The notes beneath the pieces were generated by a model. It did not search any database. It saw only the letters and a list, made by a program, of their open reading frames with translations, and had not been told where the DNA came from. The position numbers were made by a program, and so were the translations under genes. DNA of 64,000 bases. It comes from Sphingobacterium corticibacter. Its GTDB lineage: Bacteria; Bacteroidota; Bacteroidia; Sphingobacteriales; Sphingobacteriaceae. This document shows positions 39,971-63,419 of the stretch, piece after piece (the stretch's first letter is position 1; each line of letters begins with the position of its first letter). The stretch lies in the NCBI RefSeq assembly GCF_003076635.1, contig NZ_QDKG01000001.1, positions 1,116,001-1,180,000 on the forward strand, in the 5' to 3' direction.

Positions 39971-40960
39971 ATGAATTTGAGATTATATGATGATCAGCGT
40001 AAAATGTTGATTTATGAAATAGAGCATCCCGAAGCTTATTTTATGGATGGCGCCATCAAAGAGAGTTCGGTCGATATGGCGGATCAAATCGGGGGCGGCA
40101 GTTTTCATGAAGTGCTATTTGATGGTGTGCATATTGCGTATGGCAGTGCGCGGCTATTGCAATCATTACGATTCGGGTTTGAGAGTGATTATGAAACAGT
40201 CGAGATGCATTTTGCTTTAAAAGGAAAGAATACCTCCTTTTCCGACGCTTTTGACCAAAAAATACGGTTTGAGCCACATACCCATAATATCATTTATGCG
40301 AATGGTATGAACGGCGAGATGGAGTGGGAGAATAATGAACTACAGATTTTTGAAATTAACCTAGCACCATCATTTTTTAAAAGATTTTTGGTTGATGAGC
40401 ATCTGGCATTTTCCAACTTTCGGGATGCTATAGAAGGAGGGAGATCAGCTTTGCTTTATCAGCAACATCGACCGATGAATCGGGAGATGTACGACATTAT
40501 TGAACAGATTATGGGTTGCCAAAGATCGGGTGTTTTTAAACGTATGTTTTTGGAAGCGAAGGTTATTGAGCTATTATTGCTCCAATTAGAACAGTTTTCC
40601 GACGATCGATTTGCCAGGTTGAGCCTCAAAAAAAACGATATCGAAAAGATATATGCGGTGCGGGAGTTCATCGTACAGAATTTGGATTCAAACTGTTCTT
40701 TGATAGATCTGGCTCATCAAGCGGGTACGAATGACTTTGTCTTGAAAAAAGGATTTAAAGAATTATTTGGCACCACCGTATTTGGCTTTTGGAATGATAA
40801 AAAGATGGAGCAAGCAAAAAAACTACTCACCGAACAAGACTTCAATGTCGGTGAGGTATCTACTATTATTGGCTATAAAAACCAGCGTCATTTTTCAACG
40901 GCCTTCAAAAAGAAATTTGGAGTATTGCCCAATGAGATGAAGAAAACGTATTATAGTTAG
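39971..40960 (+). CDS. AraC-family transcriptional regulator (PchR-like)
   Basis: A 329-residue regulator. The N-terminal ~210 residues are a sensor domain (VEMHFALKGKNTSF, THNIIYANGMNG) resembling PchR/siderophore-responsive AraC proteins. The C-terminal HTH pair is CSLIDLAHQAGTNDFVLKKGFKELFG and FNVGEVSTIIGYKNQRHFSTAFKKKFGVLPNE. The start is ATG 39971; a TTG at 39962 gives three extra residues. It likely activates the divergent siderophore-interacting reductase, and perhaps distant uptake genes, in response to a siderophore; the ligand is inferred from neighbours only. Confidence 0.88.
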   Translation: MNLRLYDDQRKMLIYEIEHPEAYFMDGAIKESSVDMADQIGGGSFHEVLFDGVHIAYGSARLLQSLRFGFESDYETVEMHFALKGKNTSFSDAFDQKIRFEPHTHNIIYANGMNGEMEWENNELQIFEINLAPSFFKRFLVDEHLAFSNFRDAIEGGRSALLYQQHRPMNREMYDIIEQIMGCQRSGVFKRMFLEAKVIELLLLQLEQFSDDRFARLSLKKNDIEKIYAVREFIVQNLDSNCSLIDLAHQAGTNDFVLKKGFKELFGTTVFGFWNDKKMEQAKKLLTEQDFNVGEVSTIIGYKNQRHFSTAFKKKFGVLPNEMKKTYYS

Positions 40961-43800: not shown

Positions 43801-46800
43801 TTAAATTGTAACCCGATGATTTTTTCGCAACGCGTCGTATTTCTTTTTAAACTCCGATGGTTTCATGCCAAAAACTTTGGAGAACTGCGTACGGAAATAT
43901 TTAATGTCATTAAATCCTGCAGCAAAGGCTGCTTCACTCACGTTAGAATCGGTCTCAATCAGGATTTGAGCTACTTTCCGAAGTCGCACAAATCGGATAA
44001 ACTCATTAGCAGATTTACCAGAAATAGCCTTAATCCGCTTGTAGAAATTGGAATGGCTCATGCCGAGTTGCTCGGCTAGTTCTTTCACATTAAAAGATTC
44101 TTGATCTAAATTTTCCTCCACAATAGCGATTGATTTCTCCAAGAAGAGTCGGTGTTCTTTCGAGATTTTATGATTGTTTGGCTGCAACGTGATCTCCTCA
44201 TAGAAATGGCGTTGCATATGGCTGCGGCTCTGAATCAGGTTGTTCACACGCGCGATCAACAATTCACGGTCAAACGGTTTGGTTACGTAATCGTCTGCTT
44301 TACCTTCCAATCCTTTGAGCTTGATATCTTGTGAGTTACTCGCAGTAAGCAAGATGATCGGTATATGACTTAATGTAGGGATACTTTTGATATGCTGACA
44401 GAGGTCAATGCCTGATAAACCGCCCATTACTACATCGCTGATGATGATATCTGGAGGTGTTTGCTCAATCAACAGGATACCTGCCTCTGCACAATCTGCT
44501 TCCTGAATTTCAAATTCATTTTGAAAGATTTTACGCAAGTACTTTCTGATTTCAGCATTATCATCGACCACTACCATGGTCTTCTTGTCACTCACCAAGT
44601 TGTGGTAATCTGTAGTTTCGTCTACTATCTCAATAGTATTATCTGTCTCATTTACAATATTTTCCTGTATGCGAGGAGCCTCTATAGCGTGCGGCGATGA
44701 TGCAATAAATTCGTCTATACTCGCGCTGTGCTCTACCACATCTTCGAAGATGGTGAATTCGGAAAGATGTGCTTTCCCATTTTGCAATACAATCTCAAAC
44801 TGGGTGCCGGCAGGAGGATTCGGTTGATGGGTAATGCGACCTTTATGTGCTGAAATGAAGCTTTTGACCAAGTATAAACCTATTCCGAAGCCGCCTTTGT
44901 TATTACTATTGCCAATGTAATCTCGTTCAAATACATTGAACACCTGATCTTTGTTTTGTGCTGCGATACCACAACCTGTATCGATCACCTGAATGGCGAA
45001 ATCGTCCATGCGCCATTGCAAGGCTACGCGAATGCTACCGCCATTAGGCGTGTACTTAAAGGCATTACTAATCAGGTTGAATAGGCAAATTTCTATTTTT
45101 TCCCGATCTACCAACAAGGAATGTTGTTCAATATTACTCTCAAAAACGTAATGAATGTGTTGTAAAATTGCTTGCTGCTGAAAGCAGGTAAATACTTCAC
45201 GCGTCAAACCCACAATATCTGCTTGCACCAAGCGTAGTTGATCCATTCCGCTCTCTGTCTTGCGAAACAACAACAACTTATCCACCAAGTTCAGCAAGCG
45301 TTTGGAATTACGGTATACCTGGTGTATGTCTTCTCGATCGATTTGCTGCGCTGGCTCCGTGCTCATTTCTTTGAGTGGATTCACGATCAACGTCAGTGGA
45401 TTTCTAAATTCATGCGCTATGTGCGTGAAAAATGCAATCTGCTTGTCATGCAACTCTTTCTTTTTCTCGGCATTTACTTTCGCAAGATCGACTTCATATT
45501 TTAATCGTGTTTGTTTGCGATCGTATCTCAGATACGTGAAAATGGCCGACCAGAACAAGGCTAAGTAAGCGATATAAGCCCAGTCGCTGCGCCACCATGG
45601 CGGTAGTATTTCAATGTCTAACGTTTTCTCCACGCCAGACCACACACCATCAGCATTGGTCGATTTGATTCGTAGCGTGTATTTACCTTCCTTTAGATTG
45701 GTGTAATTAGCCGTTTTTACATTATCAACATAGTTCCAATCTTTATCCCAACCTTCTAGAAAGTAAGCATACTCCACCTTAGTCGGGAAGGAGTACTCTA
45801 ATGATGAAAAGTGTACGTTGAGCACGGCATCATCAAAAGGTATGGTGAGCTTATCGATATGATTGGTCGAACTGTAAACTCGATCGCCCGTGAAAAGATT
45901 GGTAGGTTTGTTGTTAACGCTCAATGCCGTGAGCACCATTTTCGAATCGCGTTGAAGGGATTTCAGTTGGCCCGGTTGAAATAGATTGAATCCATGAATC
46001 CCACCAAACGCCAAACTTCCATCTTTCAATTTGATGGCCGCATTGTAATTGAATTGGTTGCTCTGCAAACCATCTGAATCGTAATAATTTTTGAATGTTT
46101 GGATGCTCGGATCAAAATTAGACAGTCCGTTGTAGGTAGATAGCCAAAGTGTGCCGGCATCATCAGGCAAAATATTTAAGATGGTATTGCTAGGAAGGCC
46201 ATCTTTTTCAGAGTATCGCTTTACTTTACTGGTTGATTTTTCGTAACGAAGTAAACCTCCGCCTTCTGTAGCGAGCCATATGTAGCCATCCTGGTTCGTG
46301 TAAATATCGCGCACTGGAAAATCGGTGTTGATGATTTTTTGTTCGCCAGTTTGGAAGTTGCGCATCGTCAAGGTCGACCAGCTACCAAACCACATGAGGT
46401 CTGCAGATTCTTCATATATACTGAGTACGTCAATGATATCTTTTGATTTTTCTTCGAATTGATCCGTATTCCGGTTATAGCAGAATATTCCACCACCGTG
46501 TAATGCACTTGCCCAAATCCGTTTTTTACTATCTTCAAATAATTTCCATGTGGCCGAAAACAAGCGGTTGTTTTCATTGGAAACGCAAGCATATTGCTTG
46601 AACACGCCAGTCTTTGGATCTAATCTATTAATTCCGCCACCATACGTAGAAGCCCATACAAAGCCCTTTTCATCGTGCAAGATACTCGTCACGAAATTAT
46701 TATTGAGTTGTCCAGAACTACCCTTATCATCTGCAGCATAATGCGTGAAAGATTGCTGCTTATGATTCCATAGCATCATGCCGGCACCATCTGTTCCGAT

Positions 46801-47928
46801 CCACAGGTCGTTATTATTTCCGTTCGCAAAAGAGAGGATAAAATTCTTCGGATTTTGTCGGTCAATAGCAGATCCAGGTTGTATCACGTGGAATCGAGAC
46901 AATCTATTGTCCACCACATGTACACCACTTCGCAATGTTCCTATCCAGTTTCGCTGCATATGATCCACGTACATGCTGTACACCGTCATACGCTTCATCC
47001 AGCTGGTACTTGCTTGATACTGTTCAAATCGGTTCGTCCTTTTGTCGAACTCAACAATTCCCTTGCCTTCAGAGCCTATGTATACTTTTTCGTATTTAGC
47101 ATAGAGCGTGGTAATTTCGAATGGGGCCAGTTTAGCATCTATCGGATACGTGCTGTATGATTTTTTATGCAAGTCGAATTCATACAATACCTGCTTATTG
47201 TCATTAGATGCGACCCAGATAGATTGTCCGTTTTCATCGACTCGTATAGCGACACTATTTTTGGTGCGATCATCGATTACCTCCAAGGCATTACTTTGAG
47301 GATCAAGCCGGCAGAGTCCATGGTTGTGAATAAAAACCCATATCTCATTTTTATTGGTGGTCACCACACCTTGTGCATTATAATCAAAGATTTTTGTCCC
47401 ATCGTACCGCTGCAAAGGAATGCGAGAGGCAAGTGGATGTTCGGTATCCGTATTCACGTACAACAAACCATAGAGAGTCGTGGCGGCGTACAGTCCCCGT
47501 GATGTATTGTATGCTAACTGATTGACACTGGCTGATATGGGGTTTTGATCCTGTCGGAATGGAAGATAATCTTTCCAACGTACGCGTTGAAAATGAGTAT
47601 AATCTGCGTCTAACTTGGCGAATCCCGATTTACTCGCTACCCAAATCCGGCCTTTATCATCTTGAGAAATATCGGTTATTCTATTATCGGGCAGTGAAAG
47701 ACCATCTTCAGGTTGATTTTTAAACACCATGAATTGATAGCCGTCAAAGCGATTTAGGCCATCGAAAGTACCAAACCACATAAAACCATCCTGATCTTCG
47801 AATATGGAGGTGACATTATTGTTGGATAATCCTTGTTCAATACCTACGTAGCGAATCCGTGGATTGTTTTCAGATTTTGCAGGCAATATAGCTGTCGCAA
47901 ATAATAATAGGATTATCAACGTTTTCAT
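43801..47928 (-). CDS. Hybrid two-component system (HTCS) regulator
   Basis: A 1375-residue membrane-spanning regulator. The signal peptide is followed by ~14 propeller blades (two-component propeller; DNNVTSIFEDQDG, WIGTDGAGMM, ILHDEKGFVW) that bind an oligosaccharide in the periplasm. Next come a Y_Y_Y domain near 715-780, one transmembrane helix (~795), a HisKA domain with the phosphoaccepting His (AHEFRNPLT) at residue 839, an ATPase (DTGCGIA, FGIGLYLVKS), a receiver with phospho-Asp at about 1165 (IIISDVVMGG) and a C-terminal AraC HTH pair. It is divergent from the GH16-GH43 gene and is the probable activator of this locus. Confidence 0.96.
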   Translation of the reverse strand: MKTLIILLLFATAILPAKSENNPRIRYVGIEQGLSNNNVTSIFEDQDGFMWFGTFDGLNRFDGYQFMVFKNQPEDGLSLPDNRITDISQDDKGRIWVASKSGFAKLDADYTHFQRVRWKDYLPFRQDQNPISASVNQLAYNTSRGLYAATTLYGLLYVNTDTEHPLASRIPLQRYDGTKIFDYNAQGVVTTNKNEIWVFIHNHGLCRLDPQSNALEVIDDRTKNSVAIRVDENGQSIWVASNDNKQVLYEFDLHKKSYSTYPIDAKLAPFEITTLYAKYEKVYIGSEGKGIVEFDKRTNRFEQYQASTSWMKRMTVYSMYVDHMQRNWIGTLRSGVHVVDNRLSRFHVIQPGSAIDRQNPKNFILSFANGNNNDLWIGTDGAGMMLWNHKQQSFTHYAADDKGSSGQLNNNFVTSILHDEKGFVWASTYGGGINRLDPKTGVFKQYACVSNENNRLFSATWKLFEDSKKRIWASALHGGGIFCYNRNTDQFEEKSKDIIDVLSIYEESADLMWFGSWSTLTMRNFQTGEQKIINTDFPVRDIYTNQDGYIWLATEGGGLLRYEKSTSKVKRYSEKDGLPSNTILNILPDDAGTLWLSTYNGLSNFDPSIQTFKNYYDSDGLQSNQFNYNAAIKLKDGSLAFGGIHGFNLFQPGQLKSLQRDSKMVLTALSVNNKPTNLFTGDRVYSSTNHIDKLTIPFDDAVLNVHFSSLEYSFPTKVEYAYFLEGWDKDWNYVDNVKTANYTNLKEGKYTLRIKSTNADGVWSGVEKTLDIEILPPWWRSDWAYIAYLALFWSAIFTYLRYDRKQTRLKYEVDLAKVNAEKKKELHDKQIAFFTHIAHEFRNPLTLIVNPLKEMSTEPAQQIDREDIHQVYRNSKRLLNLVDKLLLFRKTESGMDQLRLVQADIVGLTREVFTCFQQQAILQHIHYVFESNIEQHSLLVDREKIEICLFNLISNAFKYTPNGGSIRVALQWRMDDFAIQVIDTGCGIAAQNKDQVFNVFERDYIGNSNNKGGFGIGLYLVKSFISAHKGRITHQPNPPAGTQFEIVLQNGKAHLSEFTIFEDVVEHSASIDEFIASSPHAIEAPRIQENIVNETDNTIEIVDETTDYHNLVSDKKTMVVVDDNAEIRKYLRKIFQNEFEIQEADCAEAGILLIEQTPPDIIISDVVMGGLSGIDLCQHIKSIPTLSHIPIILLTASNSQDIKLKGLEGKADDYVTKPFDRELLIARVNNLIQSRSHMQRHFYEEITLQPNNHKISKEHRLFLEKSIAIVEENLDQESFNVKELAEQLGMSHSNFYKRIKAISGKSANEFIRFVRLRKVAQILIETDSNVSEAAFAAGFNDIKYFRTQFSKVFGMKPSEFKKKYDALRKNHRVTI

Positions 47929-47946
47929 TAGGTGGCTAGTCTTTCA

Positions 47947-47974
47947 GGCAAGTAGTTACACAATGCTACTTGCC
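47947..47974 (-). promoter_or_regulatory. Hairpin in the HTCS 5' leader
   Basis: GGCAAGTAG (47947-47955) is the exact reverse complement of 47966-47974 with a 10-base loop, ending 18 bases before the ATG at 47928. In the mRNA it could affect ribosome access or stability. Confidence 0.5.
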
Positions 47975-48004
47975 AATAAATATAAATTTAATAAAGGCTT
48001 AAAG

Positions 48005-48012
48005 CAAATTTA
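48005..48012 (-). promoter_or_regulatory. -7 element of the HTCS promoter
   Basis: On the minus strand TAAATTTG matches TAnnTTTG, giving a ~70-base leader that contains the 47947-47974 hairpin. No good -33 is seen. Confidence 0.4.
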
Positions 48013-48045
48013 ACGTAAATAAAAGCGATGTGTTCATTGTTACAA

Positions 48046-48059
48046 TCACAAATTTGTGA
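48046..48059. promoter_or_regulatory. 14-base palindrome in the HTCS/GH16 divergent region
   Basis: TCACAAATTTGTGA is a perfect palindrome lying upstream of both divergent promoters, a position where a dimeric regulator could act on both. Confidence 0.35.
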
Positions 48060-48085
48060 CGATCAAAAGGCCATTATTCGCATTA

Positions 48086-48143
48086 TACACCCTTGTTTTG
48101 GTGAATATGCCCCTCTCTTCCAATTTAGGAGCGCATACATTTG
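48086..48143 (+). promoter_or_regulatory. Candidate HTCS operator A and promoter of the GH16-GH43 gene
   Basis: Half-sites TACACCC (48086-48092) and ATGCCCC (48107-48113) are followed by the -7 element TACATTTG at 48136-48143, 29 bases from the second half-site. The same layout recurs upstream of the SusC and GH2 genes. The second half-site is placed where a -33-contacting activator would bind. Confidence 0.5.
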
Positions 48144-48170
48144 CTACATACTAACCATCATATAATATCT

Positions 48171-50063
48171 ATGAAAAGAAGCTCCATATTAGCTTGCTTT
48201 ATTTTTCAATGTATGTCCATCTGTTATGCTCAAGATCAAAACTACCAGTTAGTGTGGTCTGATGAATTTGAAAAGACAGGTGCCGTCGATGTACAGCATT
48301 GGAATTTCGAAAAAGGTTTTCAACGTAATCATGAAGATCAATGGTATCAAGAAGAAAATGCGACTATTAAAAACGGTGTATTGGTGATCGAAGCCAGAAA
48401 AGAAACCAAGGCTAACCCAACTTATGAAGTTGGAAGTGATCATTGGGCAAAATCTCGCAAAAATGTCGAGTACACCTCATCCTCCATAAATACCTCCGGC
48501 AAGCAATCATGGAAATACGGGCGATTTGAAATGCGAGCCAAAATTCCTGTTGGGCAGGGCATCTGGCCGGCATTTTGGACTTTAGGAGTCGATCGAGAAT
48601 GGCCTTCCAATGGCGAGATCGATATCATGGAATATTACCAAGGCAACTTATTAGCAAACATCGCCGTCGGCACGAATCGCCGTTGGCAAGCAGAATGGCA
48701 TAATGGTAAAAAAGCCGTTGCCGAATTAGGCGGAGCCAAATGGGCACAGGAATTTCATGTGTGGCGGATGGATTGGGATGAAGAAGAGATCGCTTTGTAC
48801 GTAGATGATATGCTGTTGAACAAGGTGCCGCAAAGCAAGTTGGCCAACAAAGATGGTTCTGGTTTTTATCCTTTCAAACAACCGCATTATATGCTGTTGA
48901 ATCTCGCTTTAGGTGGTGATAATGGTGGTGAAATTGACGAATCGCTCTTGCCTGCACGATATGAAATTGATTATGTGCGTGTGTATCAGAAGCCTAGTCA
49001 GCGGCCTAAGCAAGTCGATACGCGCACGGCATTTCAACCAGGCGAATTGTGGTTAGACCAGAATGGCGAGCATATCAATGCACATGGTGGTGGCGTGTTG
49101 TATCATAATGGTACGTACTATTGGTACGGCGAAAAGCGCGGTGGCAAAGAATCTCAAGGCGTTACCGTGTACTCGTCGAAAGATTTATATAGCTGGAAAG
49201 CAGAAGGTTTGGCTCTCAAGACATCAACGGATACTAGCAGTCCGATCACGCAAGGCAGTATCATTGAGCGACCAAAAGTGATCTATAATGAAAAGACGAA
49301 AAAGTTCGTCATGTACTTTCACTTAGAACTCAAAGGCAGAGGATATGAGGCTGCTTACGTCGGTTTAGCGACCAGCGATCATGCTGTTGGGCCTTTTACG
49401 TTCCATAAAGCAGGGCGTGTGAATCCAAAAAAATGGCCGCTGAATATGACCAAATCGCAGCGTCAATCTACAGTTTCTGAGAAAGATCATGCAGAATGGT
49501 GGACACCAAGCTGGATGGAAGCGATCAAAGACGGCCTTTTTGTACGCCGGGATTTCGAGGGCGGACAAATGGCTCGGGATATGACTTTATTTGTAGATGA
49601 TGATCAGACCGCCTATCATGTGTATTCTGCTGAAGATAATCTCACTATTCACATTGCCGAATTGACCAAAGATTATCTGGGTTATACAGGCAAATATGTA
49701 CGCGTAGAACCCGGTGGTCACAATGAAGCTCCTGCTTTATTGAAAAAGGATGGAAAGTACTACATGGTCACTTCTGGTTGTACAGGCTGGGCGCCTAATG
49801 CTGCTCGATTGTTAACGGCCGACAAGATGCTAGGCGAGTGGTCACGACACGACAATCCAGCCGTGGGATCTGGTGCAGATCGCACTTTCGAATCCCAAAG
49901 TACACACATCCTTCCAGTGCATGGCAAAAAGGATACATTCATCTTTATGGCCGACCGATGGAACCCTAAAAACCTGAAAGATAGCCGATATATTTGGTTG
50001 CCTATCGAATTTAGTAATGATGGATTACTGTTCTTCCAATGGCAGGATAGTTGGAAATACTAA
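48171..50063 (+). CDS. GH16-GH43 fusion glycoside hydrolase
   Basis: A 630-residue secreted enzyme from ATG 48171 (the TTG at 48141 is not a good start). The signal peptide ends at CYAQ. The first half (~residues 25-285) is GH16 with catalytic ExDxxE at E149, D151, E154 (NGEIDIMEY). The second half (~290-625) resembles GH43 galactan 1,3-beta-galactosidase-like modules, beginning GELWLDQNGEHINAHGGG and YWYGEKRGG. An endo- and an exo-acting galactanase in one polypeptide would be coherent, but neither specificity is proven. No linker or binding module is clear between them. It is the first gene divergent from the HTCS. Confidence 0.85.
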   Translation: MKRSSILACFIFQCMSICYAQDQNYQLVWSDEFEKTGAVDVQHWNFEKGFQRNHEDQWYQEENATIKNGVLVIEARKETKANPTYEVGSDHWAKSRKNVEYTSSSINTSGKQSWKYGRFEMRAKIPVGQGIWPAFWTLGVDREWPSNGEIDIMEYYQGNLLANIAVGTNRRWQAEWHNGKKAVAELGGAKWAQEFHVWRMDWDEEEIALYVDDMLLNKVPQSKLANKDGSGFYPFKQPHYMLLNLALGGDNGGEIDESLLPARYEIDYVRVYQKPSQRPKQVDTRTAFQPGELWLDQNGEHINAHGGGVLYHNGTYYWYGEKRGGKESQGVTVYSSKDLYSWKAEGLALKTSTDTSSPITQGSIIERPKVIYNEKTKKFVMYFHLELKGRGYEAAYVGLATSDHAVGPFTFHKAGRVNPKKWPLNMTKSQRQSTVSEKDHAEWWTPSWMEAIKDGLFVRRDFEGGQMARDMTLFVDDDQTAYHVYSAEDNLTIHIAELTKDYLGYTGKYVRVEPGGHNEAPALLKKDGKYYMVTSGCTGWAPNAARLLTADKMLGEWSRHDNPAVGSGADRTFESQSTHILPVHGKKDTFIFMADRWNPKNLKDSRYIWLPIEFSNDGLLFFQWQDSWKY

Positions 50064-50124
50064 GCAAGTAGACATTTACGTAAAAAGGCGTTCTATTTCG
50101 TTTAAAAACAAATTTAAAACGAAT

Positions 50125-50183
50125 TCACCCCTTGTCAAAGATGAAAATGCCCACGTTGTGGGCATTTTTTTTTAAGAAATTTG
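50125..50183 (+). promoter_or_regulatory. Candidate HTCS operator C and promoter of the second susCD pair
   Basis: Half-sites TCACCCC (50125-50131) and ATGCCC (50147-50152) are followed by GAAATTTG (50176-50183), one mismatch from TAnnTTTG and again 29 bases from the second half-site. The second half-site overlaps the left arm of the terminator at 50144-50168, so it may be coincidental. Confidence 0.35.
50144..50172 (+). terminator. Terminator of the GH16-GH43 gene
   Basis: AAAATGCCCAC (50144-50154) and GTGGGCATTTT (50158-50168) form an 11-bp stem with a 3-base loop and a T-run of nine. Confidence 0.92.
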
Positions 50184-50295
50184 TCCCTTAACTAATCGAT
50201 CCAAGCCAGTGCACACGACAGTGTGGACCATAATGAACCTAACAACATCGGCTACCAATCGATAAGAGAAATATAAATCTTAATTACCAAAAAGA

Positions 50296-53200
50296 ATGAG
50301 AAAAAATCGTTACCTCATTAAGAGCGTCGCTTTGATGTTTTTAATGATCGCAGTGGCACTCCACTCCGCTTACGCCCAAAGTCGGCAAGTAAGAGGAAAG
50401 GTCACCGCTGAAGGACAACCGCTTGCAGGTGTTTCTGTGCAAGTGCAAGGTACGCAGCAGGGGACTGCTACCAATGAACAAGGAGAATTTAGCATCGCGG
50501 TAAAACCGACGGACGCTTTGATCATTACCGCGATGGGATACCAGCGCCAAACGATCAATCTAGCCGACCAAAATGCCAGTGCCAATGGAGAATACACACT
50601 CAATGTAGAGATGTTGACTTCCGGAGGCGATGCGCTAGAAGAAGTGGTGGTAGTAGGTTTCGGAACGCAAAAGAAAACCAACTTAACGGGTTCCGTAGCT
50701 ATTGTTGATTCTAAGCAATTAGAGAATAGACCAGTTCAAAATGCCGTACAAGCATTGCAAGGTTTAGCGCCAGGACTCAATATATCTCAAAACAGTGGTT
50801 CTATGGAAGCTGGTGCTTCGATCAACGTACGTGGATTGGGTACTATCGGTAGTTCATCTTCGTCGCCATTAGTATTGATCGATGGTTCAGAGGGATCACT
50901 TACGGCTTTGAATCCGCAAGATATCGAGAGTATTTCGGTACTGAAAGATGCAGGTGCATCTTCTATCTATGGATCGAGAGCGGCGTTTGGGGTAATTTTG
51001 GTAACGACCAAATCGGGAAAAGCCGGTAAAACAGTTGTTAATTACAATAATAACTTCCGTACCAACAGGCCAACTACCATGCCTTCTATGATGGATTCGT
51101 ATACGTTTGCACAATACTTCAACCGTGCGGCGGTTAACGGAAATAGCGGATTGGTTTTTAGTGAAGCGCACTTACAACGTATTTTAGATTATCAAAACGG
51201 AACAATTACAGGTTCTACGATTGTAGATCCCAATAATTCAAATCGCTGGGGTGAGGGCTACGCCTATGGTAATGATAATGTAGATTGGTTTGATGTGATG
51301 TACAAAGATCGTGCATTCGCGCAGGAACACAACCTAAGCTTGAATGGCGGCTCGGAAAAAACAACCTTCTACCTTTCTGGTAACGCGATGAAACAAGGTG
51401 GTATGATGGCTTTCAATACTGATCACTACGATCGCTACGCGGTATCTGCCAAGATCAACTCCCAAGTTTCTGACTATTTCACGGTAGGATACAATGCGCG
51501 TTTGGTGCGTGAAGACTATCAGCGTCCAGCTAATCTTACGAATGCATTTTACGACGATTTGGGTCGTCAAGGTTGGCCAACTTTGCCACTATATGATCCA
51601 AACGGAAACCTTTACAGTTCACCTTCTCCCGCTTTGGGCATGCGTGATGGTGGTCATGATAAATCGACTAAAGATTTCATCTTTCAACAGTTGCAATTGA
51701 CCTTGGAGCCTATTGCAGGATGGAAAACAGTAGGACAGATCAATTATCGCACATCTACGGAATTCAGACACTGGAACTCCCAGCAATTGTATAACTACGA
51801 TGTCAATAATGAGCCTTATTTGTACAAGCAATCGTCTAACGTATATGAATACGGATGGAAAGAAAACTACTATAATGCCAATGCCTATTCAGAATACGAC
51901 AAATATCTCGGGAATCACCATATCAAAGGGATGGTTGGTTTTCAGGCAGAGTGGACTGGTAATCGTAGTTTAGGTGCACAACGAAATGGTATCATCGTGC
52001 CAAACCAGCCGGTGTTGAATTTGACAACAGGTACAGATCCTAATGGAGAATTGATCGTGCCAGTTGTTTCTGGAGCCTACCAAAACTGGGCTACAGCAGG
52101 TTTCTTCGGTCGTTTGAATTACGATTATCAAGAAAAGTATCTTTTTGAAGGTAACTTACGCTATGATGCTTCTTCTCGTTTCCGTCAAGGAACACGTTGG
52201 GGTTGGTTCCCGTCAGTATCTGCCGGATGGAATATTTCCAAAGAATCTTTCTTCGAGAACTGGACATCTACGGTGAATATGTTGAAATTCCGTGCTTCTT
52301 ACGGAGAGCTGGGTAACCAAAGTACGAATGACTGGTATCCTACTTACGTGGTAATGCCGATTGGCGTGACCAATGGCGGCTGGTTGCTAAATGGCACCGC
52401 ACCGAATACAGCGAGCGCACCAGGATTAGTAAGTTCATTCCTCACTTGGGAATCGATCAATACAGCCAATATCGGGGTTGACTTTGCCTTATTGAGCAAC
52501 CGCTTGAACGGATCATTCGAGGTGTTTTCACGTAAAACATTGAATATGGTGGCTGATGCACCTACGCTTCCTGCGACATTGGGAACTGGCGTACCGCAAA
52601 GCAACAATACCGATTTGAAAACGACTGGTTTCGAGGCGACTATTGGGTATAATGACCGTACGGTTGGTGGCTTTGGCTATGGCGCGAAATTCTTACTTTC
52701 CGATTATCAAACTACCGTAACTCGTTTCAATAATGAGGCTGGACAATTAGATCGTTACCGTCCGGGGCAAAAATTGGGTGAAATCTGGGGTTACGAAACT
52801 ATTGGCATTGCCAAAACACAAGAGGAGATGGATGCGCACTTGGCAACCTTGCCAAATGGTGGACAGAGCCGCTTAGGTCAGCAATGGGGTGCTGGAGACA
52901 TCATGTACAAAGATTTGAATGGCGATGGCGTGATTGACTGGGGTGATGACACCGAAGGCAATCCTGGTGATAAGCGAGTGATTGGTAACAATACACCACG
53001 TTACAGCTTTGGTTTGAACCTGAATGCAGATTACAAAAACTTTGATTTAAGCTTGTTCTTCCAAGGTGTTGGGAAAAGAGACATTTGGCAAGGAGGTTAT
53101 TACTTCTGGGGAGCCGTATCTAATCAATGGTGGTCTACAGGATTGACCGCACACGAAGATTACTTTAGACCAGAAGGCGATCCACTAGGATCTAATCTAG

Positions 53201-53499
53201 ATGCTTACTATGCAAGACCAGCATTTAATACGAGTAGAAATCAGCAAGTTCAAACCCGTTATTTACAGGATGCCTCATACATCCGTTTAAAAAATATCAT
53301 GTTGGGCTATACGCTACCAGCTGGTACTTTAGACCGTTTGGGTATTGCTAAGATGCGTGTGTATATATCAGGTGAAAATGTATGGACTTCTTCAAAAGTC
53401 TCATCCGTATTCGACCCAGAAACGATCGATGGAGGTTCAAACGGAACAGTGTATCCATTGAACAAAGTATGGTCAGCTGGTCTTAGTCTTACGTTTTAA
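50296..53499 (+). CDS. SusC/RagA-family transporter of the polysaccharide locus
   Basis: A 1067-residue TonB-dependent outer-membrane transporter. The signal peptide ends at AYAQ, then come a carboxypeptidase-like regulatory domain (QVRGKVTAEGQPLAGVSVQ), the TonB-box-like EEVVVVGFGTQ, a plug (VLKDAGASSIYGSRAAFGVILVTTKSGKAG) and a barrel with WGWFPSVSAGWNIS and GDIMYKDLNGDGVID. It ends in aromatic AGLSLTF. It pairs with the SusD gene 8 bases downstream, and the pair would import arabinose/galactose-rich oligosaccharides released outside the cell, judging from the neighbouring enzymes. Confidence 0.94.
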   Translation: MRKNRYLIKSVALMFLMIAVALHSAYAQSRQVRGKVTAEGQPLAGVSVQVQGTQQGTATNEQGEFSIAVKPTDALIITAMGYQRQTINLADQNASANGEYTLNVEMLTSGGDALEEVVVVGFGTQKKTNLTGSVAIVDSKQLENRPVQNAVQALQGLAPGLNISQNSGSMEAGASINVRGLGTIGSSSSSPLVLIDGSEGSLTALNPQDIESISVLKDAGASSIYGSRAAFGVILVTTKSGKAGKTVVNYNNNFRTNRPTTMPSMMDSYTFAQYFNRAAVNGNSGLVFSEAHLQRILDYQNGTITGSTIVDPNNSNRWGEGYAYGNDNVDWFDVMYKDRAFAQEHNLSLNGGSEKTTFYLSGNAMKQGGMMAFNTDHYDRYAVSAKINSQVSDYFTVGYNARLVREDYQRPANLTNAFYDDLGRQGWPTLPLYDPNGNLYSSPSPALGMRDGGHDKSTKDFIFQQLQLTLEPIAGWKTVGQINYRTSTEFRHWNSQQLYNYDVNNEPYLYKQSSNVYEYGWKENYYNANAYSEYDKYLGNHHIKGMVGFQAEWTGNRSLGAQRNGIIVPNQPVLNLTTGTDPNGELIVPVVSGAYQNWATAGFFGRLNYDYQEKYLFEGNLRYDASSRFRQGTRWGWFPSVSAGWNISKESFFENWTSTVNMLKFRASYGELGNQSTNDWYPTYVVMPIGVTNGGWLLNGTAPNTASAPGLVSSFLTWESINTANIGVDFALLSNRLNGSFEVFSRKTLNMVADAPTLPATLGTGVPQSNNTDLKTTGFEATIGYNDRTVGGFGYGAKFLLSDYQTTVTRFNNEAGQLDRYRPGQKLGEIWGYETIGIAKTQEEMDAHLATLPNGGQSRLGQQWGAGDIMYKDLNGDGVIDWGDDTEGNPGDKRVIGNNTPRYSFGLNLNADYKNFDLSLFFQGVGKRDIWQGGYYFWGAVSNQWWSTGLTAHEDYFRPEGDPLGSNLDAYYARPAFNTSRNQQVQTRYLQDASYIRLKNIMLGYTLPAGTLDRLGIAKMRVYISGENVWTSSKVSSVFDPETIDGGSNGTVYPLNKVWSAGLSLTF

Positions 53500-53507
53500 T
53501 TAGGAAA

Positions 53508-55508
53508 ATGATGAAATTAAATAGTCAATTTTTTACAAAATATATGCTCCTTATCGGAGCGGTTGCGGGCCTGAGTTCCTGTGAGAAGTTCTTAGATATC
53601 GAACCACCATCTCAGATCATTCCAGAGAACTATTTGGAAGAGGAAAGTCAATTGGCGGCTTACACGATTGCGCGTTATACCGAATTGCTGCCATCACATG
53701 GCAACTGGTCGTACGGTACATTCGGTAACGATGGTGGTACGGATAATATGGTGACGCCTTCGGTGAACAATCGTTATGTTCCTGGTCAACAGCGTGTTGC
53801 TGCTAATGGCGGTGAATGGAGCTTCACGTCCATATTTCAAGCGAACTATTACTTGAATACGGTTGTGCCTAAGTGGAAAGCGGGAACTATTTTTGGTTCG
53901 TCCGAAAATGTAGCTCACTACGTAGGTGAAGGTTATTTCTTGCGTGCGATGGCGTACTTTCAGAAATTGCAAACATTAGGCGATTTCCCGATTATGAAAA
54001 CAACCATGAATGATAGCGATCCAGCTCTTTTGATCGAGGCGAGTCGCCGTTCTCCACGCAATGAGGTAGCACGTTTTATCTTGTCAGATCTGGATTCTGC
54101 GATTATGTTGCTTAAAGTGCAAGCACCAGGTGGTCGTAAACAACGTATTGCTAAGCATGCTGCATTGTTGCTTAAATCTAGAGTTGCTTTATACGAAGGT
54201 ACTTGGTTGAAATATTTTAAAGGTACGGCGTATGTGCCGAATGGTCCAGAATGGCCAGGAGCGACTAAGGAATTCACCAGCAATTATCAATATTCTTCTG
54301 GTGGTATTGATCAGGAAATCGACTTTTTCTTGACCGAAGCCATGTCTAGCGCTCAAGTTGTAGCAGACGAAGTCGCTTTAGTAGAAAACACGGGTATTAT
54401 TGAATCTCCAGCAAATGAGAACCCTTACTTCAACATGTTCTCTGCGGTGAATATGTCGACTTATAGCGAGGTCTTGCTTTGGAGAGAATACAGCCAAAGT
54501 GTAGTAACACACAATGTACCGGTTAATTCACAAACGGGTAACTATGCGGTAGGTACGACTCGCAGTTTGGTAGAAAGTTACTTGATGGCTAATGGTTTGC
54601 CAATCTATGCGACAGGTAGCGGATATCAAGGTGATGATTATCTAGCCAATGTGCGTGCTAATCGCGACGGACGCTTGAATTTATTTTTGAAAGAGCCTGC
54701 TCAACGGAATATCCTTGTCAATAGAGGTGCTGGTAACGCGGAGGTAGCGGTAGAACCAACTCCTCAGATTCTGGCTACGAACTGGGAACAGAAATATACC
54801 ACGGGATATGCTTTGCGTAAAGGCCTTTCTTATGATGGTTTGCAAATGAATAATGGACAAGGATTTACGGGTAGTATTACCTTCCGTGCTTCAGAAGCTT
54901 ATTTGAACTATATCGAAGCTTGTTATGAGAAAAATGGAAGCATCGATGGCAAAGCTCAAGGTTATTGGAGAGCATTGCGTACACGTGCTAAGGTAGATCC
55001 TGATTATAGCAAAACGATTGCTGCGACCGAAATGAGCAAAGAAACCCTAGATTGGGGCGCATATTCTGCTGGTAATCTGATTAGCCCGACTTTGTATAAT
55101 ATCCGTCGTGAGCGTCGTAGCGAGTTGATCGCTGAGGGCTTGCGTTGGATGGATTTGAAACGCTGGCGTGCTATGGATCAAATGGCGCAGACGCCATACC
55201 ATTTCGAAGGTTTCAAATTATGGGGACCAATGAAAGACTGGTATCAAGCAAGCGCTTTGGTGTTTGGTGCATCCAATAGCAATGCGATCGTATCTGATCC
55301 AGCGCGTAGTGCCTACTTGCGTCCGTTAGAGATACAAGGAAGTTCATTAGGATACAACGGCGCTCGTTTTACGATGGCACATTACCTAGAACCTATTGCT
55401 GCTTTGCACTTTATCCTTACCTCGCCAGATAATTCAGCAGCAACTTCTGTTATTTATCAAAATCCAGGATGGACTACCGCTGGTGGTTCCGCTCCAAACG
55501 GATTTTAA
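53508..55508 (+). CDS. SusD/RagB-family lipoprotein of the polysaccharide locus
   Basis: A 666-residue surface lipoprotein, longer than the first SusD in the window. The signal and lipobox (GLSSC) are followed by SusD features: EGYFLRAMAYFQKLQTLGDFPIM, TPR-like helices and the C-terminal LYNIRRERRSELIAEGLRWMDLKRW. It is the glycan-binding lid of the SusC gene 8 bases upstream and closes that transcription unit at a terminator. ATG 53508 or the next codon, 53511, may be the start. Confidence 0.93.
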   Translation: MMKLNSQFFTKYMLLIGAVAGLSSCEKFLDIEPPSQIIPENYLEEESQLAAYTIARYTELLPSHGNWSYGTFGNDGGTDNMVTPSVNNRYVPGQQRVAANGGEWSFTSIFQANYYLNTVVPKWKAGTIFGSSENVAHYVGEGYFLRAMAYFQKLQTLGDFPIMKTTMNDSDPALLIEASRRSPRNEVARFILSDLDSAIMLLKVQAPGGRKQRIAKHAALLLKSRVALYEGTWLKYFKGTAYVPNGPEWPGATKEFTSNYQYSSGGIDQEIDFFLTEAMSSAQVVADEVALVENTGIIESPANENPYFNMFSAVNMSTYSEVLLWREYSQSVVTHNVPVNSQTGNYAVGTTRSLVESYLMANGLPIYATGSGYQGDDYLANVRANRDGRLNLFLKEPAQRNILVNRGAGNAEVAVEPTPQILATNWEQKYTTGYALRKGLSYDGLQMNNGQGFTGSITFRASEAYLNYIEACYEKNGSIDGKAQGYWRALRTRAKVDPDYSKTIAATEMSKETLDWGAYSAGNLISPTLYNIRRERRSELIAEGLRWMDLKRWRAMDQMAQTPYHFEGFKLWGPMKDWYQASALVFGASNSNAIVSDPARSAYLRPLEIQGSSLGYNGARFTMAHYLEPIAALHFILTSPDNSAATSVIYQNPGWTTAGGSAPNGF

Positions 55509-55533
55509 AAGATCGTTTTTATAGTTGTTTATT

Positions 55534-55570
55534 AGCCGTAGATCATAGCAATATGGTCTGCGGTTTTTTT
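55534..55570 (+). terminator. Terminator of the second susCD pair
   Basis: The arms 55536-55544 and 55555-55563 (CCGTAGATC/GGTCTGCGG) pair with two G-U pairs, followed by seven T. It separates the susCD unit from the GH2 operon. Confidence 0.8.
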
Positions 55571-55669
55571 GTGTTTTGCTATGTCATTCTTACGAACAAA
55601 TCCAAAATGTTGGTCGTGTCATACATTCGTTACCTGATCAGACGCAGTCATTCCGTTTCGGTCAATATG

Positions 55670-55726
55670 CACCCTGTTTTGGGCAAAAATGTCCCCCTCG
55701 GTAGCATCCTTTTGCCATTATCTTAG
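55670..55726 (+). promoter_or_regulatory. Candidate HTCS operator B and promoter of the GH2-GH51-GH127-GH43 operon
   Basis: Half-sites CACCC (55670-55674) and ATGTCCC (55689-55695) are followed by TATCTTAG at 55719-55726, one mismatch from TAnnTTTG and 30 bases from the second half-site. Operator A aligns with it over 32 bases at 22 positions without gaps. Confidence 0.5.
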
Positions 55727-55745
55727 TGCTATTAACACATACTAG

Positions 55746-58985
<3,240 letters not shown>

Positions 58986-58992
58986 CCTTATT

Positions 58993-61005
58993 ATGGCATT
59001 TACCGGAAAACATATTTTCTCTCGAAAAAATCTATTAAAAATAGCGTTGCTAGCAGCAGCATTGCAGGTGCAATCCACTGATTTGTTGGCACAGGATCAA
59101 AAGACCTTTACGGTGGATATGAATAAGCCGAAAGGCGAGATTAATCCCAACATGTGGGGCATCTTCTTCGAAGATATCAACATGGGAGCAGATGGCGGAA
59201 TCTACGCTGAGCTCATCAAAAACCGTTCTTTTGAATTTTTTAGACCCATGATGGGATGGGAAAAGCTGGGTAAAAATACCGAAGCGAGCATGACTATCTT
59301 AAATCGGCAGGAAGAAGAGCATCAAGCCAATCCACGCTATCTGCGCGTAGATACGCGGAAAGCAGATACCACACTTGGACTAAAAAATGAAGGTTTCCGT
59401 GGTATGGGCATCAAAGAAGGTTTGGCCTATGATTTTTCGGTATTGTACCGTCAAGCCAATGCTGGTATTCGCGTCAAGCTAGAGTTATTAGATTCTACGG
59501 GGCAGGTAATTGCGGAAACTGCATTTCAGCCAACCGCAGATGTGCAAAACTGGCAAAGCGCCGAAGCGCGTTTGGTCGCTACTAAGACAGATCCTAAAGG
59601 CTCATTCCGTATGTGGTTTGAAGGCAAAGGCGTGATCGATTTAGATATGATCTCCCTATTCCCAGAAGATACGTGGAAAGGACGTAAAAAAGGTTTACGC
59701 GCTGATATGGTGCAAGCCTTGGCAGATCTGAAGCCGGGATTTATTCGTTTTCCGGGAGGCTGTATTGTCGAAGGATTTGATCTTTCGCAACGTTTCCAAT
59801 GGAAGAAAACGGTAGGAGCGATTGAAGATCGTCAGTTGATCATCAACCGTTGGAACACCGAATTTGCGCATCGTTTAACACCGGATTATTTCCAAACATT
59901 TGGTTTAGGATTTTACGAGTACTTCTTGATGGCCGAAGATATCGGTGCCGAGCCACTTCCTATCCTAAACTGTGGTATGGCTTGTCAATTCAATACAGGC
60001 GAATTAGTGCCATTGGATGAGTTGGATCCGTATATTCAAGATGCCATCGATTTGATCGAATTTGCCAACGGTTCGGTGAACACCACTTGGGGTAAAGTAC
60101 GCGCAGATATGGGGCATCCAGAACCATTCAACCTCAAATTGTTGGGCGTAGGAAATGAAAACTGGGGTCCTCAATATGTAGAGCGTCTAGCCGTATTTCA
60201 AAAAATACTAAAAGAGAAACATCCAGAAGTAGAGATCATCGCGAGTGCAGGGCCATATTCTAGCGGCGAGTACTTTGAGTACTTGGATAAAGAACTCCGT
60301 ACGATGAATGTAGATATCATCGATGAGCATTTCTACCAAGAACCGAAATGGTTCTTGAATAATGCGAAACGCTACGATAACTACGATCGCCAAGGGCCAA
60401 AAATCTTTGCTGGTGAATACGCAGCACATAGTCGCGCGGCAACGCATGCGGAGCAACGTAATAATTGGGAAGCCGCTTTGTCTGAAGCCGCATTTCTAAC
60501 CGGATTGGAGCGTAATGCAGATGTGGTACAACTGGCTTCTTATGCGCCATTATTTGCGCATGCGGAAGGCTGGCAGTGGAATCCAAACTTGATTTGGGTG
60601 GACAATATGAAAGTATATCCTACGCCAAGTTATTACGTGCAAAAAGCCTATTCAAACAACACAGGTACACATATTTTATCGTTGCTTGATCAAGGAGCTG
60701 CCGTTGCTGGACAAGATAGCGTCTATGCCTCTGCCGTGTTAGATGAAGAACATCGTAACATTACCTTGAAGCTGGTGAACGTAAGCGGACAGGCGAAACA
60801 AATCGCACTTAATCTGAATGGTTCACAAAAGCTAGCTAAAAGCGCACAAGTAGAATTTATCACGGCCAACGATCTAGGTGCATTCAACGCCGTTGGTAAA
60901 GAGCTACGCGTCGTTCCGCAGCAAACCACTCTGCCAGTGAATAAGAAAAAGCTGGATTTGCCGATGCAGCCACACGCCTTTTATACCATTAAGATCACCT
61001 ATTAG
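58993..61005 (+). CDS. GH51 alpha-L-arabinofuranosidase
   Basis: A 670-residue secreted enzyme releasing alpha-L-arabinofuranose side chains. A signal peptide ends near LLAQ. An N-terminal beta domain (residues ~35-220) is followed by the GH51 barrel. The acid/base Glu in GVGNENWGPQ is at residue 389 and the nucleophile in IFAGEYAAHS at 475. A C-terminal beta-sandwich follows. It is second in the GH2 operon, with 7 bases from GH2 and 20 to GH127. Its arabinofuranosidase role fits removal of side chains from arabinogalactan, arabinan or arabinoxylan; the beta-galactosidase and galactanase-like partners favour arabinogalactan. Confidence 0.94.
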   Translation: MAFTGKHIFSRKNLLKIALLAAALQVQSTDLLAQDQKTFTVDMNKPKGEINPNMWGIFFEDINMGADGGIYAELIKNRSFEFFRPMMGWEKLGKNTEASMTILNRQEEEHQANPRYLRVDTRKADTTLGLKNEGFRGMGIKEGLAYDFSVLYRQANAGIRVKLELLDSTGQVIAETAFQPTADVQNWQSAEARLVATKTDPKGSFRMWFEGKGVIDLDMISLFPEDTWKGRKKGLRADMVQALADLKPGFIRFPGGCIVEGFDLSQRFQWKKTVGAIEDRQLIINRWNTEFAHRLTPDYFQTFGLGFYEYFLMAEDIGAEPLPILNCGMACQFNTGELVPLDELDPYIQDAIDLIEFANGSVNTTWGKVRADMGHPEPFNLKLLGVGNENWGPQYVERLAVFQKILKEKHPEVEIIASAGPYSSGEYFEYLDKELRTMNVDIIDEHFYQEPKWFLNNAKRYDNYDRQGPKIFAGEYAAHSRAATHAEQRNNWEAALSEAAFLTGLERNADVVQLASYAPLFAHAEGWQWNPNLIWVDNMKVYPTPSYYVQKAYSNNTGTHILSLLDQGAAVAGQDSVYASAVLDEEHRNITLKLVNVSGQAKQIALNLNGSQKLAKSAQVEFITANDLGAFNAVGKELRVVPQQTTLPVNKKKLDLPMQPHAFYTIKITY

Positions 61006-61025
61006 GTCTTAGTAATCGACGAGCT

Positions 61026-63419
61026 ATGTTTAGAAAACGGAATGTGTTTTGGATGCTTGCTTTTGCTGCTTTAGCGGTTGTACCCGCTAAAGCACAAGAT
61101 GGAGCGATAAAATTGCTCCCCATCAAGCAGGTGCGGTTATTGGAAAGTCCATTTTTAAAAGCGCAATCACTGAACCGTGATTACTTGCTGGCTTTGGATG
61201 CCGATCGCTTGCTCGCGCCCTTTCTTCGCGAAGCAGGTTTGCCCGAAAAAGCATCCAGTTATACCAATTGGGAAAATTCTGGCCTAGATGGCCACACGGC
61301 TGGTCATTATCTATCTGGTTTGTCCCTATTATACGCCTCGACGGGCGACAAAGCCATACAGGCCAAACTGGAATATGTACTTTCAGAATTGCAACGCTGT
61401 CAAGATGCACTTGGCACCGGATACATTGGTGGCGTACCGGGCAGCACAGCGCTATGGCAAGAGATTAGCCAAGGCGATATTCGTGCGGGTAATTTTGATT
61501 TGAACGGCAAATGGGTGCCTTTGTATAACATCCACAAAACATTTGCTGGTCTGCGCGATGCGTATCAGGTAGCTGGTTATTCAGTAGCTAAAGATATGTT
61601 GGTCAAGATGACTGACTGGGCAGTGAACGTGACGGATGGACTGAGCGATGCGCAAATGCAAGATATGCTGCGTAGTGAGCATGGCGGACTCAATGAAGTA
61701 TTTGCCGATGTCGCTTTTTGGAGCAAAAATCCAGCTCATGCCCGGTTAGCAAAGCGCTTTACACAAGATTCTTTTCTAAACCCTTTGTTAAGTAGACAAG
61801 ATCTCTTGACAGGGATGCATGCCAATACACAAATTCCTAAAGTAATCGGCATCGAACGCATTGCCGAGTTAGAAAACCAAGATGCTTGGCACGATGGCGC
61901 GCAATTCTTTTGGGAAACCGTGGTGCACAATCGTAGCGTAGCGATTGGCGGGAATAGCACGTATGAGCATTTCCATCCTTCGGATGATTTTTCGAGCATG
62001 GTGACCAGTGTCGAAGGACCAGAAACCTGCAATACCTATAATATGCTCAAGCTGAGTGCACAATTGTTTCAGCGCACGGGCGATGTGCGCTACGTCGATT
62101 ATTACGAGCGCGCTTTGTACAATCATATTTTGTCTTCACAACATCCGGAGCATGGCGGATTGGTCTATTTCACGCCGATGCGACCAGCACATTATCGTGT
62201 GTATTCGCAGCCGCAAACGAGCTTTTGGTGCTGCGTGGGTTCTGGATTAGAAAGCCATTCGAAATACGGCGAGTTCATCTACGCGGAGCAAGATCAAGCG
62301 CTATGGGTCAATCTATTTATTCCGTCGGTGCTGACTTGGGAAAAGATGGGCGTGCGCTTGGTGCAACAACATCAATTTCCGAGTACCGATACGATCAATT
62401 TTAAAATACACGCTGATAAAGCGAAAAAGTTTACCCTACATCTACGAAAGCCAAATTGGACAAAAGGGGAGCAGGTCTCCCTTTTTGTCAATGGCAAAAA
62501 GCATCAGATTCAGGAACGCAACAAAGGTTATCTCACCGTAGAACGCAAATGGAAAGAGGGCGATGAGATAAAATTAGTATTGCCGATGCGCGTAGAGCTG
62601 GAAACATTTCCGGACAACTCGCCTTATCTGGCTTTTAACTACGGCCCAGTAGTGCTGGCTGGCACGAGCGCTTCGCAAGATGACATCGTCGGATTGCTAG
62701 CGGATGATAGCCGCGGAGGTCATATTGCCAAAGGCAAACAGGTTTCTGCGACTGATATCCCGTTATTAGTCGGCGATAAAAATGACTTAGTGCAATCGGT
62801 CGATTTGATTTCGGCAAAAGACCTTCGCTTTGCACTACATGTGCAGAATGCAAAAGGGGAGTCGCAGACACAAGAACTAAAACCCTTTGCGCAAATTCAC
62901 GATGCGCGCTATCAGATTTACTGGCCTTACGCCGAATCCCAGAACGAGGCAAAGAGTTACTTTGATCGCGTTAGCAACGCTTATCTGGAACGATTAGAAA
63001 AGCTCACGATCGATCAGGTGCGCGTGGGACAACAACAGCCTGAATCTGATCACGGCATACAATCTTCACAATCCACTACAGGGGCGCAGAATGGCACGCA
63101 GTGGCGTGAAGCCACTGGTTGGTTTAGCTATCAACTCCGTCAATCATCCGGCGAAGCCAAATTCTTATACGTTCAGTATTTTGCCGAAGGCGAATATGAT
63201 TACAACATTTCTATCAATGAAGTGCAGATCGCGAAATTAACTGCCGATCAGAATGCTTCGGGCTTGCAGCAACAAACCATTGCCTTGCCAAAAGAGATAC
63301 AAGCCAATGCAGATCTACTTATTCGTATAGAAGCTAATTCGGGCAACAAAACAGCAAAAATAACCAACATAAAACTACTCCGGAACAATCTATCTGATAC
63401 GCCGGTCACAAATTTTTAA
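61026..63419 (+). CDS. GH127 beta-L-arabinofuranosidase
   Basis: A 797-residue secreted enzyme (formerly DUF1680). The zinc/catalytic set of the family is visible: E333 and C335 in GPETCNTYN, and C402/C403 in WCCVGSGLE, matching the Glu-Cys-Cys-Cys site of Bifidobacterium HypBA1, whose Cys acts as nucleophile. An (alpha/alpha)6 barrel and C-terminal beta domains follow. A further C-terminal ~140-residue region after ~660 (FSYQLRQSSGEAKFLYVQYF) looks like a carbohydrate-binding-type beta-sandwich. The signal peptide ends at AKAQ. It is part of the GH2 operon and would remove beta-linked L-arabinofuranose. Confidence 0.9.
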   Translation: MFRKRNVFWMLAFAALAVVPAKAQDGAIKLLPIKQVRLLESPFLKAQSLNRDYLLALDADRLLAPFLREAGLPEKASSYTNWENSGLDGHTAGHYLSGLSLLYASTGDKAIQAKLEYVLSELQRCQDALGTGYIGGVPGSTALWQEISQGDIRAGNFDLNGKWVPLYNIHKTFAGLRDAYQVAGYSVAKDMLVKMTDWAVNVTDGLSDAQMQDMLRSEHGGLNEVFADVAFWSKNPAHARLAKRFTQDSFLNPLLSRQDLLTGMHANTQIPKVIGIERIAELENQDAWHDGAQFFWETVVHNRSVAIGGNSTYEHFHPSDDFSSMVTSVEGPETCNTYNMLKLSAQLFQRTGDVRYVDYYERALYNHILSSQHPEHGGLVYFTPMRPAHYRVYSQPQTSFWCCVGSGLESHSKYGEFIYAEQDQALWVNLFIPSVLTWEKMGVRLVQQHQFPSTDTINFKIHADKAKKFTLHLRKPNWTKGEQVSLFVNGKKHQIQERNKGYLTVERKWKEGDEIKLVLPMRVELETFPDNSPYLAFNYGPVVLAGTSASQDDIVGLLADDSRGGHIAKGKQVSATDIPLLVGDKNDLVQSVDLISAKDLRFALHVQNAKGESQTQELKPFAQIHDARYQIYWPYAESQNEAKSYFDRVSNAYLERLEKLTIDQVRVGQQQPESDHGIQSSQSTTGAQNGTQWREATGWFSYQLRQSSGEAKFLYVQYFAEGEYDYNISINEVQIAKLTADQNASGLQQQTIALPKEIQANADLLIRIEANSGNKTAKITNIKLLRNNLSDTPVTNF

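Follow-up and report, generated by a model that had tools for sequence, protein, structure and literature searches.

Three paired sequence elements in a polysaccharide locus of Sphingobacterium corticibacter are very likely the operators of the adjacent hybrid two-component system regulator (HTCS), whose predicted binding would activate three transcription units in a coordinated manner. The locus lies within the window, the whole stretch of 64,000 nucleotides analysed here from the 3.9-Mb Sphingobacterium genome, and contains the HTCS gene divergent from the GH16-GH43, SusC-SusD and GH2-GH51-GH127 units. This reading is built on what was observed: where the sites lie, how they are spaced and conserved, and that they occur with one range of HTCS DNA-binding domains (DBDs). 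The three sites, termed A, B and C, and the promoter elements following them are given below.

48084-48113, + strand: candidate operator A, GH16-GH43 promoter; half-sites TATACACCC (48084-48092) and GAATATGCCCC (48103-48113)
48136-48143, + strand: -7 element of A, TACATTTG; TAnnTTTG in 4/4 orthologs
50122-50152, + strand: candidate operator B, SusC promoter; half-sites AATTCACCCC (50122-50131) and GAAAATGCCC (50143-50152)
50176-50183, + strand: -7-like element of the SusC promoter, GAAATTTG; GARATTTG across four species
55664-55697, + strand: candidate operator C, GH2-GH51-GH127 operon; half-sites AATATGCACCC (55664-55674) and AAAAATGTCCCCC (55685-55697)
55719-55726, + strand: -7-like element of C, TATCTTAG; TAnCTTAG in 4/4 orthologs

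The half-sites stand in the same orientation and form a direct repeat, reading roughly AAWTTnCCCC, a consensus over 29 collected sites in whose alignment some rows are displaced by one base. The first-pass annotation had described three CACCC...ATGYCCC pairs, and their letters and positions were confirmed together with the distances it had reported: the CCC cores are 20 bp (GH16), 21-22 bp (SusC) and 21 bp (GH2) apart, within the range of 20-22 bp, and a -7-like element starts 29, 29 and 30 bases past the ATG, respectively. Its ungapped match at about 22 of 32 positions was reproduced for the GH16 and GH2 sites (best 23/32) but not for GH16 and SusC (18/32). The -7 consensus TAnnTTTG, as given in the available text of PMC7366714, is complete at A in all four orthologs; B (GAAATTTG) and C (TATCTTAG) each deviate from it at one position. 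At all three sites, 21-23 bases separate the end of half-site 2 from the downstream -7 element. By eye, the -33 TTTG of the sigma-ABfr promoter is absent from A, B and C, and half-site 2 occupies its place, as expected of an activator-dependent promoter. A half-site standing in for the -33 box is the arrangement of class II AraC-type activators, and a direct repeat two helical turns apart is typical of AraC-type dimers. With at most one mismatch, the pattern CACCCNNGTN9AATGNCCC has three matches in the 3.9-Mb genome, two of which are A and C; the third (L003) was discarded as lying inside an open reading frame (ORF).

The entire seven-gene locus is present in three other Sphingobacterium genomes, where the syntenic HTCS orthologs are 93, 83 and 81% identical, and all three paired sites are kept in the four syntenic loci. 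In the four-way alignment, identical columns amount to 25/31 at A versus 78/155 upstream of it, 25/29 versus 26/60 at B and 26/31 versus 81/157 at C. A lower-scoring match within the HTCS gene of these four close species was ascribed to coding conservation.

To follow the sites into more distant loci (HTCS 41-50% identical), a position weight matrix (PWM) built from eight A and C sites was run on HTCS-linked 20-kb stretches. In 11 of 15 loci, intergenic sites were found ahead of the first gene that diverges from the HTCS, so that the search for the motif in orthologous promoters, which the first-pass annotation had recommended, gave a positive outcome in the four syntenic loci and next to the HTCS in most of the distant ones. 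The first gene is SusC-like at eight of the 11 sites, weakly GH16-like at two and unassigned at one; in six of the distant loci, sites before GH16-GH43 were found as well. All 29 collected sites align without gaps (38-bp site), and a -7-like octamer, defined by patterns selected after the sequences were seen, starts at offset 53-55 in 29/29. The -7 counterpart of the distant first-gene sites begins with GA in 8/11. A PWM made from these 11 sites peaked exactly at A, B and C in the respective upstream regions of the window, the SusC site included that the first-pass annotation had called the weakest (per-region p of 0.0017 for GH16, 0.0076 for SusC and 0.0054 for GH2). Among 127,926 window positions A ranked 1, B 5 and C 3, and upon addition of the six distant GH16 sites the ranks were 1, 8 and 2.

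Two profile models were used further, R1 built without the window sites and R2 built from all sites, A, B and C included. R1 placed A second in the genome with an E-value of 0.025. In the R2 search of the genome, in which 150 of 1814 candidates were scored, the training sites A, C and B reached 31.8, 27.0 and 22.5 bits, and the next match reached 15.1 bits. As 37 SusD genes were counted in this genome and R2 sites above 15.1 bits are A, B and C only, the motif is not a general promoter element. Equal frequency in unrelated intergenic DNA, named in the first-pass annotation as an outcome that would speak against an operator, was not observed.

The R2 scan was extended to 93 genomes of the genus at E≤0.01, with strict filters through which weak matches were lost. 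It returned 49 matches, of which 28 were training sites of the genus and 21 were others. Eleven of the 21 sit 0.3-10.4 kb from an HTCS ortholog, though these are not independent, as six share one distance of 5.2 kb; the context was examined for six of the 11, all of which are intergenic. The remaining ten matches are away from the listed HTCS orthologs. Seven of them fall inside ORFs and were taken as chance, and three are intergenic, among them one that precedes a GH16-like gene (G008) and one with a -7-like element, 28 kb from its HTCS (G020). Among non-training genomes, an R2 match was found in 12/18 with an HTCS ortholog (E≤1e-200) versus 8/61 without (nominal Fisher p 2e-5).

Beyond the genus, 45 of 58 named HTCS loci were analysed, leaving out seven from Sphingobacterium and six that are remote or partial (L168-L171, L174, L175). 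All but one of the 45 lie outside the genus, including loci from Parapedobacter, Chitinophaga, Niabella, Flavisolibacter, Niastella and Flavobacterium, and three orders are covered: Sphingobacteriales by Parapedobacter, Chitinophagales by Chitinophaga and Flavobacteriales by Flavobacterium. Of the 31 R2 matches in these loci (E≤3), 27 are no more than 800 bp away from the HTCS gene. In a model-free test, WWW-N(1-2)-CCC pairs were counted by spacing, with a half-site pattern picked after the sites had been seen. The spacing spectrum peaks at 19-23 bp in HTCS-adjacent promoter segments. Pairs at 20-22 bp occur in 47/76 HTCS-adjacent segments versus 20/310 others, and with training loci excluded in 33/61 versus 10/265. 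Additional promoters from these loci are counted among the other segments, and some of them have genuine sites. Next to the HTCS, a pair at 19-23 bp was found in 33 of the 45 loci compared to 2.6 expected from dinucleotide shuffles, and by group in 8/14 of this set; p-values are nominal, since close relatives, among them the 16 Flavobacterium loci, do not count as independent cases. Two Niabella loci (L165, L173) lack a 19-23 bp pair, yet R2 matches adjoin their HTCS genes, and two loci counted as misses (L130, L141) have R2 matches 2.4 and 9 kb off, respectively. The pair of L129 looks like chance. In the Parapedobacter/Chitinophaga loci L121 (~14090-14146), L125 and L147 (~14040-14100), the half-sites seem to number three instead of two, in tandem at intervals of about 21 bp.

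The presence of a site tracks the similarity of the DBD, which makes the HTCS DNA-binding domain the likely reader. For 43 of the 45 loci a domain table could be compiled, L165 and L173 lacking a usable frame. A pair or R2 match lies beside the HTCS in 34/38 loci with a DBD identity of at least 0.41, and in 0/5 with an identity of 0.33 or less. Loci whose first recognition helix contains SHS (MSHSNLYK-like) have a site in 29/32 cases. Exceptions to the link between domain and motif are L039, L130, L132, L141 and L164, without a site, and L192, with one. Furthermore, 17 loci of divergent HTCS paralogs in other Sphingobacterium genomes (DBD identity 26-43%) have a pair in three cases, two of them near-identical loci; R2 gave two matches in this set, one beside the HTCS of L192 and one inside the HTCS gene of L195. 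These figures support the proposal of the first-pass annotation that the AraC domain of the HTCS reads the sites, as a correlation that predicts binding.

Several observations weigh against this interpretation. The conservation of the sites is not the highest in their surroundings, as among windows of 29-31 bases A ranks 18/213, B 16/205 and C 6/238. At B, conservation runs on through the terminator, the -7 element and the leader (113/144 downstream columns identical) and is inseparable from theirs, so that by itself it does not single out an operator. The distant sites had been found using the PWM of A and C, so that the recovery of A and C with the 11-site PWM is partly circular, while that of B is not. 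R1 gave C an E-value of 0.19 only, in the window, and B was missed by this model built without the window sites. In HTCS-linked 20-kb stretches, the PWM of A and C yielded no accepted site in L039 and L049-L051, the best match in L039 (10.6) not being accepted. The clearest exception is L039, with a DBD 66% identical and the helix SHSYVY, for which there is no accepted site nearby and no R2 match in the genome. Conversely, L192 has a DBD identity of 33% and a good site (1204-1239, - strand, 18.0 bits) between the HTCS and the divergent gene, and helices other than SHS come with a site in 5/11 loci; the SHS helix is thus a correlate and not an exclusive key. In the genus, 6/18 non-training genomes with an HTCS ortholog give no R2 match and 8/61 without an ortholog do. 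The choice of the half-site pattern for the spacing test after inspection of the sites belongs here as well.

Site B coincides in part with the end of the upstream transcription unit.

50143-50173, + strand: terminator hairpin of GH16-GH43; 12 pairs followed by a T run; the 5' arm contains half-site 2 of B

The hairpin folds at -16.1 kcal/mol (z -4.99); its 5' arm is identical in four species, and a single change in the 3' arm was seen in one of them. A consensus terminator scan did not call the hairpin, perhaps because the stem absorbs the T run, and folding revealed it. This is the overlap of the SusC site with a terminator arm that the first-pass annotation had pointed out. Half-site 1 of B (AATTCACCCC) lies outside the hairpin, is kept in 4/4 species (as AATTTACCCC in one) and resembles the first-gene sites of distant loci. 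In the GH16-like promoters of L094, L101 and L107 from three other Sphingobacterium genomes (position ~1501, not in the model), the downstream half-site ATATCCCC(C)T is mirrored as AGGGG(G)ATAT immediately before the -7 element, forming a terminator-like inverted repeat that recalls site B.

Given this overlap, A and C could be operators while B is merely the GH16-GH43 terminator resembling a half-site, with SusC controlled elsewhere. The position of half-site 2 within the 5' arm of a strong hairpin, the failure of R1 to detect B and the conservation of the whole SusC leader would all fit such a scenario. It is nonetheless rather unlikely, as half-site 1 outside the hairpin is kept in all four species, the best position of the PWM from distant first-gene sites, 8/11 of which precede a SusC-like gene, is B itself, and the -7-like element of B follows at the same spacing as at the other sites. 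Taken separately, A and C are highly probable operators and B is a probable one. Chance likeness of C-rich words in AT-rich intergenic DNA has in its favour that single half-sites are short and common. It was disfavoured already by the orthologous promoters carrying the sites, and it becomes negligible in view of the three pattern matches genome-wide, two of which are A and C, the high ranks obtained with a PWM from other loci and the enrichment of the spacing over shuffles.

The conserved blocks might also represent an extended core-promoter signature of a housekeeping or alternative sigma factor instead of an HTCS operator, which would explain their fixed distance from the -7-like element and their location in the -33 place. 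With 37 SusD genes in the genome, yet R2 scores above 15.1 bits at A, B and C only (the model being trained on them), with site presence tracking HTCS genes and their DBDs across genera, and with a two-turn direct repeat as is typical of AraC-type dimers, we consider this very improbable. Another AraC-type regulator could be the reader, either a stand-alone receiver-AraC protein or the product of the AraC gene at 39962-40960. A second locus of the same genome (L077, 6850-15677, from C1:1306849) comprises SusC, SusD, DUF3823 and GH97 genes and encodes a stand-alone receiver-AraC protein without fused sensor, which is 48% identical to the C-terminus of the HTCS and may be an HTCS remnant, its receiver scoring below the Pfam cut-off. 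The SusC gene of this locus is preceded by the top genome match of R1, a similar paired site, and a second receiver-AraC paralog (L067) is 35% identical. In orthologous loci, however, the site accompanies the linked HTCS, the site that goes with the 48% paralog is a separate one and differs in its letters (TTACACCATC...AATTCCACCCC), and no match was found within 3 kb around the L067 paralog. Control by another regulator is accordingly very improbable; cross-binding between paralogs and sites is possible.

We return to the HTCS as the reader of all three sites. The regulator and the genes of the locus are as follows.

43801-47928, - strand: HTCS; Reg_prop propeller sensor, Y_Y_Y, HisKA, HATPase_c, receiver and AraC-type HTH_18, all above Pfam cut-off
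48171-50063, + strand: GH16-GH43 gene; ATG 48171 is the likely start, the listed TTG 48141 falling within the -7 element
50296-53499, + strand: SusC-like TonB-dependent receptor, from ORF list and Pfam
53508-55508, + strand: SusD-like lipoprotein, from ORF list and Pfam
55776-63419, + strand: presumed operon of GH2 (55776-58985), GH51 (58993-61005) and GH127 (61026-63419)

The HTCS thus unites propeller sensor, histidine kinase, receiver and DNA-binding modules in one chain, and among nine genome matches to it (E≤1e-20) it is the only full-length one. We propose a regulon of three transcription units in a genome with one full-length HTCS match. The enzyme set of GH16, GH43, GH2, GH51 and GH127 suggests, by enzyme family, an arabinogalactan-like substrate. 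In the proposed mechanism, the sensor would detect a periplasmic oligosaccharide and then phosphorylate its own receiver domain. Phosphorylation would free the AraC-type domains to form a dimer on the two direct half-sites, whose CCC cores are two helical turns apart. Because half-site 2 ends where the -33 box is expected, the bound HTCS could contact RNA polymerase from there, and the GH16-GH43, SusC-SusD and GH2-GH51-GH127 units would be switched on together. Physical binding, its dependence on phosphorylation, and activation rather than repression are inferred.

At SusC, the same 10 bp would serve double duty as half-site 2 of B in the DNA and as part of the terminator 5' arm in the RNA. 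A bound HTCS acting as a switch at this position is a speculative and distinctly unlikely extension: the HTCS at B might block or stop transcription arriving from upstream, or be displaced by the polymerase, whereby expression of the SusC transporter would be coupled to polymerase passage from the hydrolase gene. The SusC 5' leader (50190-50296) is strongly kept in four species and folds at -18.5 kcal/mol (z -3.2 versus shuffles), and an inner hairpin has arm letters altered on both sides in L035. It could act as a leader RNA element, or a DonS-like antisense RNA could target it; a search of 47900-50320 against Rfam gave no match.

Operators of this kind have been predicted before. In Bacteroides thetaiotaomicron, Ravcheev et al. 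2013 (PMC3878776, available text) predicted direct-repeat operators with an average of 21 bp for 16 HTCSs, and motif similarity was described as generally following the HTCS DNA-binding domains. As in the present locus, these consist of two conserved direct sites with a non-conserved spacer at ~21 bp upstream of HTCS-linked operons; a dimer on one helix face was also proposed, and similar motifs go with similar DBDs. The features of those operators, direct half-sites at ~21 bp, conservation among orthologs and a link between motif and DBD, are all found at A, B and C. In contrast to that study, the present sites come from other genera and a different HTCS, and the comparison covers layout and spacing; the half-site is here traced over three orders, and a terminator takes in part of one operator. 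Operators of this type were therefore already known. The first-pass annotation was aware of no description of the operator for this locus, which stands in the literature searched; the type was described in 2013 with the Bacteroides direct repeats (PMC3878776). Among open-licence titles and abstract openings, we found no literature on this locus, on this half-site or on a cross-order HTCS operator, and no precedent for the overlap of a SusC operator with a terminator or for the spread over three orders.

Binding of an HTCS AraC-type DBD to a susCD promoter in vitro is documented in the available part of PMC11253607, in which the HTCS-promoter pairs BT4124/bt4114 and BT4663/bt4662 were tested by electrophoretic mobility shift assay, whereas binding at the present sites is predicted. 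In the Bacteroides HTCSs of that study, phosphorylation relieves an inhibition of DNA binding, and the HTCS of our locus has the SHIP residues, sharing this part of the S/CHIP-DK inhibitory motif described there. Chromatin immunoprecipitation sequencing of BT0366/BT1754 (PMC3404733, main text) showed an HTCS binding at the locus under its control, as proposed here; that work concerns a different regulator, and the word 'motif' is absent from its main text.

The sites provide base-resolved candidate operators for an HTCS outside Bacteroides, and connect one range of HTCS DBDs with a single half-site, AAWTTnCCCC, across three orders. L039 offers a natural test case for this link between domain and motif. 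If the link holds, the polysaccharide regulons of many Bacteroidota could become readable from sequence, and glycan-responsive promoters could be designed.

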